From Gammaproteobacteria bacterium (GTDB lineage: Bacteria > Pseudomonadota > Gammaproteobacteria > Burkholderiales > Thiobacillaceae), in the NCBI GenBank assembly GCA_018820765.1, contig JAHJNN010000012.1, positions 124,001 to 188,000 of the forward strand: 64,000 bases of DNA, in the 5' to 3' direction. Shown piece after piece: positions 16,483 to 21,502 of this stretch. Each line of letters opens with the position of its first letter. Positions within the stretch are counted from its first letter, which is position 1. The notes beneath the pieces are model-generated. The model was not told the origin of the DNA. It saw only the letters and a list, made by a program, of their open reading frames with translations, and made no database searches. Both the position numbers and the translations under genes were made by a program.

Positions 16483-17229
16483 TTATTCATGGTGCACGAC
16501 AAACGCGACCTCGGTGGTGAAATTGCCGACGCCGCGATGGCTGGTCGACGTCCAGCCGGCATCCTTGAGAGTATGGGCCAGCTCACGCGTCATCGCCGGG
16601 TTGCCGCAGATCATCACGCGATCGTGTTCGGGATCGGGCGCAGGCAGGCCGAGACGTTGCGACAGCATGCCGGAGCGGAACAGGTCGCTGCCGCGTTCGG
16701 TCGTGGGAAACGACTCGCGCGTCACCGTCGGCACGTAATACAGCTGGGCGTTGTTCAGCGCCTCGATCTCGGCACGGTAGGCCAGTTCGGCCACCATGCG
16801 CACCGAATGCACCAGCACCACGTGTTCATAGCGCGCATAGAGCGCGGGGTCGCGGATCAGGCTCATGAACGGCGCCAGCCCGGTTCCGGTGGCCAGCATG
16901 TAGAGCGTGCGTCCCGGCAGCACGTGATTGAGCGTGAGCGTGCCGGTGGGCTTGTTGTTGACCCACACGCTGTCGCCGGGACGGATATGCACCAACTGGC
17001 TGGTGAGCGGGCCATCCGGCACATGGATGCTGAGGAATTCAAGATAGTCGCGATCGGCGGTGGAGACGATGGAATACGCGCGCGCCACCAGCTTGCCCTC
17101 GCGCTTCAGGCCGATGGTGACGAATTCGCCGTTTTCAAACGCAAAACCCTGCGGCCGGCTGAGCCTGAAGCTGAAGGTCTTGTCCGACCACGGACGGACC
17201 GACTGCACCGTTTGTTCACTGTAAGGCAT
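16483..17229 (-). CDS. fpr: Ferredoxin--NADP reductase
   Basis: A 248-residue FAD enzyme that moves electrons between NADPH and ferredoxin or flavodoxin. The FAD-binding motif RAYSIVST is near residue 50 and the NADP-binding region includes GTGLAPFMSLIRD. The CGNPAMTREL motif and a short C-terminal tail (VAFVVHHE) are of the bacterial Fpr type rather than the plant type. It stands about 110 bases after rtcB on the same strand; the gap 17230-17341 shows nothing notable. Confidence 0.93.
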   Translation of the reverse strand: MPYSEQTVQSVRPWSDKTFSFRLSRPQGFAFENGEFVTIGLKREGKLVARAYSIVSTADRDYLEFLSIHVPDGPLTSQLVHIRPGDSVWVNNKPTGTLTLNHVLPGRTLYMLATGTGLAPFMSLIRDPALYARYEHVVLVHSVRMVAELAYRAEIEALNNAQLYYVPTVTRESFPTTERGSDLFRSGMLSQRLGLPAPDPEHDRVMICGNPAMTRELAHTLKDAGWTSTSHRGVGNFTTEVAFVVHHE

Positions 17230-17341: not shown

Positions 17342-18772
17342 TCATCCCTTGATGCAAGCCAGCGGCTTCAGCTTCGCCACCTTGCGTGCCAGTCCGGCCC
17401 GCTCGGCCACCTCCACCACGGCGCTGACGTCCTTGTAGGCACCGGGCGCCTCTTCCGCGACGCCGCGCAGCGAGGGACTGCGGATCAGGATGCCCTGGCC
17501 GGCAAGCTCGTCCACCAGCGCGCGGCCGCGCCACTGCCGGGTGGCCTGATGTCGGCTCATGGCACGCCCGGCGCCGTGGCAGGCGGAGCTGAAAGCGCGC
17601 GACATGCCGGCCTCGGTGCCGACCAGGATATAGGACGCCGTGCCCATGCTGCCGCCGATCAGCACCGGCTGACCGATGTCGCGCAGCTCATTGGGCAGCG
17701 CCGGATGGCCGGGGCCGAAGGCGCGCGTCGCGCCCTTGCGATGCACGTAGAGGTCGCGCGACGTGCCGTCCACCGTATGCCACTCCTGCTTGCAGGTGTT
17801 GTGCGACACGTCGTAGATCAGGGAGAGATGCGACCCCGGCAGCATCTCGGCAAACACCTCGCGGGTGAGGTGGGTAATGACCTGGCGGTTGGCCAGGGCG
17901 CAGTTGATCCCCGCGCGCATGGCGCCGAGGTAGGACTGGCCGAGCGGAGAGTTGATCGGCGCGCAGGCCAGTTCGCGGTCGGGCAGTTCGATGCCGTGGC
18001 CGGGCGCGGCGACCACCATCTGCCTGAGAAATTCGGTGCCGATCTGGTGCCCCAGCCCGCGCGAGCCGCAATGGATGCTGACCACCACCTCGCCCAGGCG
18101 CAGGCGGAAGCGGTCGGCCGCCTTGCTGTCATGGATTTCGACGATTTCCTGCAGTTCGAGGTAATGGTTGCCGGAGCCCAGCGTACCAATCTCGTCGCGC
18201 TGGCGGCGCTTGGCGTGTTCGGACACCTGGTCCGGCTCGGCGCCGGCCATGCAGCCGTGCTCCTCGATGCGATCGAGGTCGGCCGCGCTGCCGTAGCCGC
18301 GCTCGACCGCCCAGCGCGCGCCGCCGCGCAGCATCGCGTCCATTTCGTCCAGCCCCAAGCGCAGCTCGCCGGTGCTGCCCACCCCGGCCGGAATGTGCGC
18401 GAACAGGCGGTCGGCGAGCCGTTCCTTGAGCGGGGCGATCGCAGCGGCCGTCAGTCCGGTGTGCAGGGTGCGCACGCCGCAGGAGATGTCGAATCCCACC
18501 CCGCCGGCCGACACCACCCCGCCTGCGTCGGCATCGAACGCCGCCACCCCGCCGATCGGAAAGCCGTAGCCCCAGTGCGCATCGGGCATGGCGTAGGCCG
18601 CCGCGACGATACCCGGCAGAGTGGCGACGTTGGTGAGCTGCTCGAAGACCTTTTCGTCCATTTCGCGGATCAAGGCCTGATCCGCATAGATCACCGCCGG
18701 CACGCGCATTCTCCCGAACGGCGCGACGCGCCATTCGACTTCCGATACCTGCTCGAATTGATCAAGCTTCAT
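17342..18772 (-). CDS. rtcB: RNA-splicing ligase RtcB
   Basis: A 476-residue GTP- and Mn-dependent RNA ligase that joins 2',3'-cyclic phosphate and 5'-OH ends in tRNA splicing or repair. Every metal and guanylation motif is present: DISCGVR, GSGNHYLE, HCGSRGLGHQIG, YDVSHNTCK and SSCHGAGRAMSR, whose His is the GMP-accepting residue in known RtcB. The start is taken at MKLDQFEQ (18772). It lies 48 bases after a gene whose product carries archease, the factor that activates RtcB, on the same strand. No rtcA or rtcR is adjacent, unlike in E. coli. Confidence 0.96.
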   Translation of the reverse strand: MKLDQFEQVSEVEWRVAPFGRMRVPAVIYADQALIREMDEKVFEQLTNVATLPGIVAAAYAMPDAHWGYGFPIGGVAAFDADAGGVVSAGGVGFDISCGVRTLHTGLTAAAIAPLKERLADRLFAHIPAGVGSTGELRLGLDEMDAMLRGGARWAVERGYGSAADLDRIEEHGCMAGAEPDQVSEHAKRRQRDEIGTLGSGNHYLELQEIVEIHDSKAADRFRLRLGEVVVSIHCGSRGLGHQIGTEFLRQMVVAAPGHGIELPDRELACAPINSPLGQSYLGAMRAGINCALANRQVITHLTREVFAEMLPGSHLSLIYDVSHNTCKQEWHTVDGTSRDLYVHRKGATRAFGPGHPALPNELRDIGQPVLIGGSMGTASYILVGTEAGMSRAFSSACHGAGRAMSRHQATRQWRGRALVDELAGQGILIRSPSLRGVAEEAPGAYKDVSAVVEVAERAGLARKVAKLKPLACIKG

Positions 18773-18820
18773 CCTGCAACCCTCAGCTGGACGCACCCAA
18801 GACTGAGGTTTCTCAGGATT

Positions 18821-20449
18821 TCACACGTCCACCACGCACTGGGCCAGCCACTGCCCGGACCCGGTCCTCGCCACCTTGAGTTCAGTATAGGTGGCGCCCT
18901 TGATTTCAACGGCGAGCTGGTGCTTCCGCCGATCGACCGCCTCGCCCCAGGCGGTGGCGTGCAGGCGCGGCCCATCCAACGCAACGTCGAAACGGCCGAA
19001 CAGCATGTGGCGCGCCGCCATTTCCAGGATCAGCGCATTGAGCCAGTCGACCAGCAGCAGTTCGTTGTCCGGCGCCTCGCAGCGGATGTCCACCGCCTGC
19101 GCCGCCGCCACCGAGGCCGGGTCGGTCACCACCGCGGTCATCGCCAGCGCCGCCTGCTCGAAGGCGGCGGCCAGAGTGGGGCCGATGCCGCGCACGCCCA
19201 TGTCGGCCTGATGCGGAAAATGTGCCCAAGAGGGTTCGCCGCGATCGCGCCACGCCGCCACCAATTGCGCCCGTGCCTGGAAGATCGCTTCCCGGATCCG
19301 CGCAGGATCGGCCGTGCGCGCCACCGCGGCGGCGTCGATCGTCTGCGCCGCCTGCAGCGCCTGCCGCAGGTAGGCCGGCGCGGGAAAAGGCTTGCCCTCG
19401 TAGCCGGGCCGGCCGCGGAAATCGCATTCGCAGGCCTGCAGAAATTCCTCGAAACGATCCGGGCGGCGGAAGGCGTCGACGCGCTCCAGTAGTTCGACGA
19501 GCGTGCCGGGGCGCAATTCCAGCGCGCGCTGGACGTTGCCGTGGTCGCGTGCCACCGCGACGGCAAGGTCGCGGCAGTCGGCGGGCACCCGGATGCGTTC
19601 GCAGAGCGTGCGCACCAGCTCGACGCTTTTGGCTTCGTGGCCGTGATGTTTCGGCCACAGCTCGGGCGGGGTGACGCCCTTGCCGAGGTCGTGCGTCAAG
19701 GCCGCAAAGCGCACCGGCAGGCTCAGGCCCTGCCGCGCCGCCCAGTCGATCACGAGCATGACATGGACGCCGGTATCGACTTCGGGATGGTGCTCGGGCG
19801 GCTGCGGCACGCCGAACAGACGGTCGATTTCGGGAAACAGCCGCGCCAGCGCGCCGCAGTCGCGCAGCACCTGGAACATGCGCGAGGGCTGTTTGTCCAT
19901 CAGGCCGCGCGCGACTTCCTGCCACACGCGTTCGGGCACCAGCGCGTCGACTTCGCCGCTGTCCACGATCTGCCGCATCAGCGCATGGGTTTCCGGAGCC
20001 ACGGAAAATTCGGTGAAGCGGGCGGCGAAGCGCGCCACCCGGAGGATGCGCACCGGGTCTTCGGCGAAGGCGTCGCTGACGTGGCGGAAGGTTTTGGCGG
20101 CGAGGTCGCGCTGGCCACCGTAGGGGTCGACCAGCGCGCCGGCCTCGTCCTCGGCCATCGCGTTGATGGTGAGGTCGCGCCGCAGCAAATCCTCTTCCAG
20201 CGTGACCTCGGGCGTGGCGTACACGGTGAAGCCCTTGTAGCCGTGCCCGGATTTGCGTTCGGTGCGCGCGAGTGCATATTCCGCGTGGGTTTGCGGGTGG
20301 AGAAAAACCGGGAAATCCTTGCCGACCGGCTGGTAGCCCAGCGCAACCATCTCGTCGGGAGTGGCGCCGACCACGACATGGTCGCGGTCGGCCACCGGCA
20401 GGCCCAGCAACCGGTCACGCACTGCGCCGCCCACGATGTAGGTTTTCAT
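18821..20449 (-). CDS. cca: CCA tRNA nucleotidyltransferase fused to archease
   Basis: A 542-residue two-part protein. Residues 1 to about 395 are an E. coli-type multifunctional Cca: GGAVRD, the metal site DRD ([10 protein letters not shown]), [22 protein letters not shown] and an HD domain (ALTHDLGKG). Residues 408-542 are a full archease domain: [11 protein letters not shown] near the start, [23 protein letters not shown] and the terminal [10 protein letters not shown]; Asp416 and Asp541 match known archease metal positions. Cca is usually about 400-415 residues. The frame is continuous. It is 15 bases after an NDUFA9-like gene and 48 before rtcB, so CCA repair, archease and RtcB ligase are probably expressed together. 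Confidence 0.92.
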
Positions 20450-20464
20450 GGCGGCACGGCAGGG

Positions 20465-21502
20465 TTAACGGTGGGCGCCTTCGCGATAGCCCTCGTATCG
20501 CGCGCGCGGCGTGCCGGCCCGCAGATATTCAGGGGCGACGGCTTCGAGCGCCGCCGGCTGGAAATCGAACACCGACGGCCAGCCGCCGCTGCAGACATTG
20601 TCCGTGCTCATGGCGTAGAAGTTGTCGCGCGTCATCAGTTTCTTGCCGGGCTTGAATTCCAGCGCCCAGGCCTGGAAATACGACAGCCATTTGCCCAGCG
20701 GAACGATGCTGCGCCGCTTGCCGATGACCTCGCCGACGTAGGTCACCAGTTCCTGCAGGGTGTAGATCCGAGGGCCGCACAGGTCGTAGGTCTGGCCATA
20801 GGTCGCCGTGTTGTCGAGGCTGTCGGCATAGGCGCGCGCGACGTCCTCGACGTACACCGGGGCGAAGCGTGCGCCGGCGTTGGCAAGCGGCAGCACCGGG
20901 AACAGCTTCAGCAGGCGGGCAAACATCGACAGGAAGGAATCGCCGCGTCCGAAGATCACCGACGGGCGGAAGAGGGTGACCTTGAGGCCGTAGCCGTGGA
21001 TGAACTTGGGTCCGTTGAGATACCAGTTTTCGTGCTCGATGTGCGCTCTTCCGGCCTCGCGTACCAGTGCCTCGCCGATGCCCTTGGAGCGCTGGTAGGC
21101 CGAGCGCGAGTTGGGATCGGCACCGAGCGCGCTCATGTGCAGCAGGCGGTGCACGCCCGCCTCGCCCATGGCGTGGACGACCTTGCGCGGCAGTTCGACG
21201 TGGACTTTCTGGAAGTCGCCGCGGCGGGCGCTCGGCAGATCGATGCGGCCGACCTTGCTTTCGTGCAGGATGCCGACCAGGTTGATGACGGCATCCATGC
21301 CGCGAAAGTGGCGGATGAGCTCCTGCTGGTCGTGCACGTCGGCCTCGATCACTTCCACCGTCGGCAGCAGGATCAGTTCCTTGGCCATTTCGCGGCGACG
21401 GGACAGCACGCGCACCTGGAGGCCGCGCACGGCGAGCAGGCTGACGAGATGGGTGCCGACAAAGCCGGACCCGCCGAGAATGCAGATGCGTTCAATCTTC
21501 AT
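20465..21502 (-). CDS. NDUFA9-like NAD(P)-binding SDR protein
   Basis: A 345-residue atypical short-chain dehydrogenase of the complex I NDUFA9 / NAD-dependent epimerase group. The N-terminal Rossmann motif is CILGGSGFVGTHLV. Further features are NLVGIL, HMSALGAD with YQRSKGIGE at about residues 125-140, and the NDUFA9-type FRPSVIFGRGD. It could be a reductase, an epimerase-like enzyme or a respiratory-complex factor; the sequence does not decide. It begins the leftward group with cca-archease and rtcB, 15 bases before cca. Confidence 0.85.
   Translation of the reverse strand: MKIERICILGGSGFVGTHLVSLLAVRGLQVRVLSRRREMAKELILLPTVEVIEADVHDQQELIRHFRGMDAVINLVGILHESKVGRIDLPSARRGDFQKVHVELPRKVVHAMGEAGVHRLLHMSALGADPNSRSAYQRSKGIGEALVREAGRAHIEHENWYLNGPKFIHGYGLKVTLFRPSVIFGRGDSFLSMFARLLKLFPVLPLANAGARFAPVYVEDVARAYADSLDNTATYGQTYDLCGPRIYTLQELVTYVGEVIGKRRSIVPLGKWLSYFQAWALEFKPGKKLMTRDNFYAMSTDNVCSGGWPSVFDFQPAALEAVAPEYLRAGTPRARYEGYREGAHR

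Follow-up and report, generated by a model that had tools for sequence, protein, structure and literature searches.

A CCA-adding enzyme fused to archease lies beside rtcB in a Thiobacillus-like genus

In the 64,000-nucleotide stretch of DNA analyzed here (the window), a complete E. coli-type CCA-adding enzyme (Cca) and a complete archease are joined in one polypeptide, and this fusion is confirmed. The observed domain content, gene order, conservation, purifying selection and co-absence with rtcB are the basis for our main reading, that the product is probably a bifunctional RNA-repair protein whose Cca half acts on tRNA 3' ends and whose archease half activates the neighboring RtcB. Both the bifunctionality and the activation of RtcB by a fused archease are likely. 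All of the component families are known, and as far as our searches reach, the architecture is a new combination within the open-access literature searched. In the parts of that literature available to us, no description of a Cca-archease fusion was found, in agreement with the initial annotation, which did not know it as a described system.

Results

One open reading frame encodes a complete Cca and a complete archease

The fusion gene, its domains and its neighbors in the window are as follows.

20465..21502, minus strand: NAD-dependent epimerase-like gene, upstream of cca with a 15-nt gap; a conserved neighbor
18821..20449, minus strand: Cca-archease fusion gene, 542 aa, an open frame recognized by Pfam and NCBIfam and one of 14 distinct proteins of the genus so built
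20090..20443, minus strand: Cca nucleotidyltransferase head domain, residues 3-120 (PF01743, PolyA_pol)
19820..20008, minus strand: PolyA_pol RNA-binding domain, residues 148-210 (PF12627, PolyA_pol_RNAbd)
19523..19768, minus strand: HD domain, residues 228-309, with H253-D254 (PF01966)
19229..19243, minus strand: linker or junction, about residues 403-407, variable in length and in frame in all fusions
18824..19228, minus strand: archease domain, residues 408-542, ending at the protein C-terminus (VVDV) (PF01951; alignment to 4n2p)
17342..18772, minus strand: rtcB, 476 aa (PF01139, 7.4e-169; match to 1uc2, 2e-153)
16483..17229, minus strand: ferredoxin-NADP-reductase-like gene, next after rtcB, named by its FAD- and NAD-binding domains

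The fusion gene starts with ATG and reads through 542 uninterrupted codons in a single frame. The initial annotation had placed a complete archease domain (residues 408-542) behind a full E. coli-type Cca in one frame; Pfam and NCBIfam agree with that description, and its coordinates are right. The NCBIfam model NF008137 (multifunctional CCA addition/repair protein) scores 652.6 bits against a cut-off of 451 and covers residues 1-402, and PolyA_pol has an E-value of 2.9e-17 for the whole fusion protein. The head domain contains VGGAVRD at residue 6 and D21-R-D23, which we take to be catalytic after E. coli-type Cca. The GG-VRD, DxD and HD motifs are all kept in the 13 full-length fusions, every one of which also contains HDLGKG. 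At the other end of the protein, the domain search proposed by the annotation returned a complete C-terminal match, as the Archease profile is aligned from 1 to 136 of its 136 positions (131.5 bits against a cut-off of 25, E-value 3.3e-38).

A structure prediction of the fusion that used 24 sequences (mean pLDDT 88.2, pTM 0.70) has two confident domains joined flexibly, with residues 405-414 below a pLDDT of 50, as expected of a flexible stretch. When this model was used in Foldseek, the matches among the best 50 were tRNA nucleotidyltransferases, related poly(A) polymerases and archeases, with 4n2p at rank 28 and three human archease entries lower. The window genome contains two PolyA_pol proteins, one of them the fusion. 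Judged by its sequence and profile score, the second appears to be PcnB-like, and the fusion is therefore the sole Cca found in this genome. Its archease domain is likewise the only archease found there.

The archease half keeps residues that Pyrococcus archease needs to activate RtcB

The metal ligands of archease are two aspartates and the C-terminal carboxylate (PMC3973293). The same paper reports that GTP-dependent activation of RtcB by P. horikoshii archease is drastically reduced by D12A, D141A or loss of I142 and severely reduced by changes to His9 or Lys117, and that a change to Glu8 affects the use of ATP and not that of GTP. In the alignment with 4n2p, His9, Asp12, Lys117, Asp141 and Ile142 correspond to H413, D416, K517, D541 and V542 of the fusion. 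None of the five varies among the 13 full-length fusions. Glu8 aligns with Pro412. In the human complex, D51, D178 and the C-terminal carboxyl group of I179 bind the archease metal (PMC10944509). All 14 fusions end in VDV with a free C-terminal carboxylate. Because the last residue is a metal ligand, archease suits the C-terminal position in a fusion, joined at its own N-terminal side; an extension at its C-terminus should upset the metal site. This suggests a structural rule by which archease would be fused at its N-terminal side only.

Purifying selection acts on the archease part, whose median dN/dS is 0.186 and median dS 0.60; the median dN/dS of the Cca part is 0.147 (pairwise NG86, 78 pairs from 13 genes). 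For residues 391-407, the median dN/dS is 0.408 with a range of 0.11-2.87 (72 usable pairs). When the archease part was compared with plasmids, three records matched at 29-56% identity, each annotated simply as archease; no match was found in the phage records searched.

rtcB follows the fusion gene

In the 1uc2 alignment, the RtcB encoded in the window is close to Pyrococcus RtcB, and its H399 aligns with Pyrococcus His404, presumably the histidine that is guanylylated. It is the only RtcB found in the window genome. The annotation had located rtcB 48 bases after the fusion gene on the same strand, and these coordinates proved right: rtcB lies downstream with a gap of 48 nt when it is counted from the ATG at 18772. 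The longest open reading frame starts at a GTG at 18796, which would shorten the gap to 24 nt; with the ATG as start, the RtcB proteins of relatives align from residue 1. The spacing suggests that the fusion gene and rtcB may be co-transcribed.

There is no match to PF01137 (RtcA) in the window genome, and the RtcA route for turning 3'-phosphate ends back into cyclic phosphates would therefore be missing. PF01137 matches occur in 9 of the 56 genomes of the genus, and co-occurrence with RtcA is uninformative. The sole tRNA gene in the window, read by eye, encodes its own CCA, in keeping with Cca acting in repair, as far as a single gene goes. A scan for tRNA genes in the loci of 17 relatives found them in one locus only.

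The fusion occurs in 14 genomes of one genus, always with rtcB

A family search found archease in 52 of 117 genomes, and in the Thiobacillus-like genus of the window it is present in 27 of 56. Classed from their DNA, these 27 comprise 14 with cca and archease fused in frame, 12 in which the two genes lie apart on the same strand and one with no cca nearby. The 14 fusions are distinct proteins (that of L124 is truncated at the edge of its contig), two of them come from single-contig assemblies (G346 and G351), and rtcB adjoins each, 1-48 nt downstream; the fusion is therefore no assembly artifact. The annotation had called for a survey of relatives for the fusion and its adjacency to rtcB, and had named a C-terminal extension without rtcB as the case that would count against it; such a case was found in 0 of the 14 fusion-bearing genomes. 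Among the best 80 loci of a contig search against named records, at least seven have the fusion (L031-L036 and L059), including Thiobacillus sp. and Thiobacillus denitrificans MAGs, from which we call the genus Thiobacillus-like. As each is identical to one of the 14, these were counted once.

RtcB is present in 30 of the 56 genomes. All 27 genomes with archease have a canonical RtcB that is 74-100% identical to that of the window, and its gene begins 0-48 nt after archease in every one. The 29 genomes without archease comprise 26 without RtcB, one with a canonical rtcB at a contig end and two with a distant RtcB. The canonical gene (G382, 90% identical) runs off the contig end where archease would lie, and the distant proteins (G388, L145 3087-4250; G358, L146 3110-4348) have an identity of ∼31% and no archease. 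Thus, archease is absent from the genomes of the genus that lack a canonical rtcB. In G358, a PF01137 (RtcA) match lies ∼2 kb from the distant RtcB on the same contig.

Among loci L037-L061 from the named records, 17 that are Thiobacillus-like lack both archease and rtcB within the stretch examined. In 11 of these, the gene right after cca is the reductase gene found behind rtcB in the window; two are on short contigs and four have no reductase match. Because cca and the reductase gene adjoin directly in 11 of the 17, archease and rtcB seem to be gained and lost together, as one block, at the cca site. A weakly resolved Cca tree (SH-aLRT supports from a quick search) places Ccas that have no archease next to fused Ccas (L058 with L059, support 91; L037, L039 and L061 with L034 and L121, support 82). 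In the one genus member with no cca nearby, the archease and rtcB genes (L147 3179-5039 in G371, also L130; 66 and 74% identity) belong to another lineage and group with family f25. There is no cca match in the 7 kb around the pair in L130, and this pair is probably a separate acquisition.

Fused and separated forms

In the 12 separated genomes, the archease match lies 578-687 nt beyond the cca stop. A lipoprotein-like gene of ∼138 aa fills this gap in the loci read and was matched at that place in all 12 (76-100% identity, 100% being the query itself). Two examples are listed below.

L038 6355-6774: lipoprotein-like gene between cca and archease
L113 977-1393: lipoprotein-like gene between cca and archease

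A Pfam scan of two of the lipoprotein-like proteins gave no significant match. Remoter homologs are found elsewhere in some fused genomes, for example at G000:C15:22051-22461 (55%). In one separated-gene genome (L060 5001-6188, with the same protein end in L129 and G364), cca seems frameshifted past residue 336, which could be an assembly error.

The unfused Ccas that were read (17 of them) end at 403-410 aa, the point at which the fused Ccas run on into archease. Locus L014 contains a tight unfused pair, with 14 nt from the cca stop to the archease match. Because 12 genomes of the genus keep the two proteins separate, a covalent link between Cca and archease is not required.

The order of events was approached with an archease plus RtcB tree of 30 rows, rooted on four family f15 genomes that have no cca nearby. 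Its first branch is a fused gene (L036), with supports of 99/96 on the branch that joins the other 25 rows of the genus; the remaining order is largely unresolved. Across 200 bootstrap trees, the fused genes form one clade in 0% and the separated ones in 2%, and the AU test rejects neither clade (fused, p = 0.063; separated, p = 0.207). Our first guess, a separated ancestor from which the lipoprotein-like gene was deleted, is disfavored since a fused gene branches first. We favor, without regarding the matter as settled, an order in which fusion came first and an inserted gene later separated the two halves.

The survey of the phylum

Archease was found in 56 of 300 genomes sampled from the order, 81 of 369 from the class and 9 of 398 from the phylum; these samples overlap and are confined to the phylum of the window. 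We examined 120 regions (all 55 non-window matches from the order, 60 of the 84 from the class and five others) and read six more class loci with shorter flanks. BLAST detected archease in 118 of the 120, the exceptions being one divergent match and one stretch that did not reach archease. In 108 of the 118, rtcB is directly downstream of archease; four have it at another place or spacing, four have none in the stretch and two are at a contig edge. A cca gene is upstream of archease in five of the 118, 18 of which extended 4 kb or less upstream: a genus member (L165) and four genomes (G135, G206, G236 and G295) that represent a single genus of another family, f50. None of the f50 loci is fused, judging by the frames read in two of them and by the archease frames of just 39 and 64 aa in the others, where the archease matches are partial.

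Twelve long frames (at least 325 aa) around archease outside the genus were considered as further fusions and rejected, as no Cca match was present in these stretches (G080, G334, G248, G020, G217, G553, G539, G619, G469, G442, G415 and G817). Upstream of archease, these frames resemble, by eye, out-of-frame or antisense translation of G+C-rich DNA. In the samples of order, class and phylum, we saw no Cca-archease fusion beyond the one genus, and the fusion is known here from that genus only.

Discussion

A proposed role in RNA repair

In the mechanism that we favor, the N-terminal Cca half would restore tRNA 3' CCA ends, and its HD domain would probably strip 2',3'-cyclic phosphates at those ends, an activity with which CCA-adding enzymes that have a working HD domain are credited in PMC10673834 (citing E. 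coli work). The C-terminal archease half would dock into the active site of RtcB, a separate product of the neighboring gene, and promote its guanylylation, and the charged RtcB would then join 2',3'-cyclic-phosphate and 5'-OH RNA ends. PMC10944509 describes archease as reaching into the RtcB active site and promoting GMP loading while it excludes RNA, and concludes that archease and RNA binding are mutually exclusive on human RTCB. Because archease charges RtcB and the Cca HD domain removes cyclic phosphates, the fusion would join two RNA-end activities and leave the ligase apart. Given the mutual exclusion concluded for human RTCB, a single docked complex is unlikely to carry out CCA repair and sealing at once. 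The tether may instead serve co-expression and the nearness of activator and tRNA rather than form an obligatory machine. The earlier proposal that one protein unites end repair and ligation therefore stands in part. The fusion and the adjacency of rtcB are confirmed, but the polypeptide carries the activator of the ligase and not the ligase, and both the 12 separated genomes and the exclusion of RNA by archease (PMC10944509) weigh against it.

We infer from the identity of the fusion partner that broken tRNA would be the main substrate. In Salmonella, tRNA halves that end in cyclic phosphates elicit a response of the rtcBA operon, and fragments rise slightly in one background when rtcB is absent (PMC7790460); tRNA is accordingly the first candidate to consider. 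The same paper called the substrates of bacterial RtcB unknown in 2020. The operon may plausibly serve in tRNA repair, and an activator fused to a tRNA-acting enzyme across many species of one genus suggests that tRNA is a substrate of RtcB.

Alternative explanations

The fusion would be merely apparent if an internal start yielded a separate archease. Most of the fusion genes (12 of 14) do have in-frame start-type codons near the joint, chiefly GTG. However, the common GTG is a valine codon of the Cca tail that is mostly shared with unfused Ccas, an ATG occurs within the 25 codons upstream of the archease tryptophan in just one of the 14, and two have no ATG, GTG or TTG in that interval, so we regard an internal start as very improbable. 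A more serious contender, to which we give somewhat less than an even chance, is that the fusion is a by-product of operon packing, in which a head-to-tail cca-archease pair lost the cca stop, archease came to be translated as an extension of cca, the halves act as they do when alone and the tether is idle. The unfused Ccas stop at the fusion point, L014 still has the tight unfused pair, the linker is short and variable with a median dN/dS of 0.41 and a wide range, 12 genomes have separated genes and the fusion was seen in one genus only. Selection on archease alone would also keep the frame intact, once archease lacked its own start codon. Yet the fused state is not a passing one, since the fused genes are well diverged (archease dS 0.60) and one of them branches first in the archease plus RtcB tree, and the occurrence of adjacent cca and archease genes in another family is a hint that the link is real.

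At the other extreme stands a coupled machine, in which Cca holds the tRNA while the tethered archease recharges RtcB alongside, sealing is followed by CCA repair and the RNA is handed off. A tRNA-acting enzyme is indeed joined to the ligase activator at its RtcB-docking end. The last helix of Cca in the predicted model stops at residue 402, 14 residues before the metal ligand D416, so that Cca would sit near the mouth of the RtcB active site when archease docks. The equivalent aspartate of human archease is residue 51, and added length is thus tolerated there on that side. The gene order is kept in the genus and found in one other genus. Against this are the relatives with separate proteins, the lack of a conserved linker sequence and the exclusion of RNA by archease on human RTCB (PMC10944509), by which any hand-off would need to be sequential; we consider such a machine doubtful. 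The more specific proposal of tethered repair, that Cca captures a cleaved tRNA, the archease tail keeps RtcB guanylylated on site and Cca then restores the end, which would make RtcB a dedicated tRNA-repair ligase, is in our view unlikely. Finally, the archease half might be a chaperone or specificity factor for Cca and not mainly an activator of RtcB; the precedent is Pyrococcus abyssi archease, which has such a role for a tRNA m5C methyltransferase (cited in PMC4275035 and PMC3973293). We consider this most improbable: 29 of the 56 genomes have no archease, many of the named relatives listed have a standalone Cca, archease was not found where canonical RtcB is absent and the residues kept are the ones needed for RtcB activation. 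Our preferred reading thus remains the bifunctional RNA-repair protein, and the near relatives with tethered and untethered forms provide a natural construct for comparison.

Relation to known systems

Like known archeases (PF01951; P. horikoshii 4n2p, human 8odo and 8odp), the fusion has a full domain with the metal-site residues, a free C-terminus and rtcB beside it; it differs by the ∼400 residues of Cca in front. Like E. coli-type Cca (NF008137), it has head, RNA-binding and HD domains at full length and scores over the cut-off; it differs by the archease that follows the region spanned by the model. The window resembles the archease-rtcB operon (the "tRNA splicing operon" of PMC3973293) in having archease directly upstream of an archease-type rtcB on one strand, whereas cca is here part of the cluster and fused to archease. 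In the RtcR-controlled rtcBA operon of E. coli and Salmonella (PMC7790460), RtcB is tied to broken tRNA, as it may be in the window; the window genome, in contrast, has archease and cca and no RtcA that was found. Jumbo-phage repair sets include RtcB and CCA-adding enzymes (PMC7824862); the word archease is absent from the main text of that paper.

Additional archease loci

Several loci met in the survey differ from the usual arrangement. In the single-contig genome G217 (L143 2060-3560), both archease and rtcB show signs of decay: the archease match reaches only to about residue 98, and the gene then passes out of frame into an rtcB that is missing approximately its first 90 residues and its end. 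In G619 (L150 1107-2950), the order is reversed, with rtcB directly upstream of archease. Three class genomes contain a second, divergent archease-like match (E-values of 6e-17 to 8e-22) at the following positions.

G468:C2:1285-1704: second archease-like match
G491:C18:40979-41392: second archease-like match
G691:C57:437-853: second archease-like match
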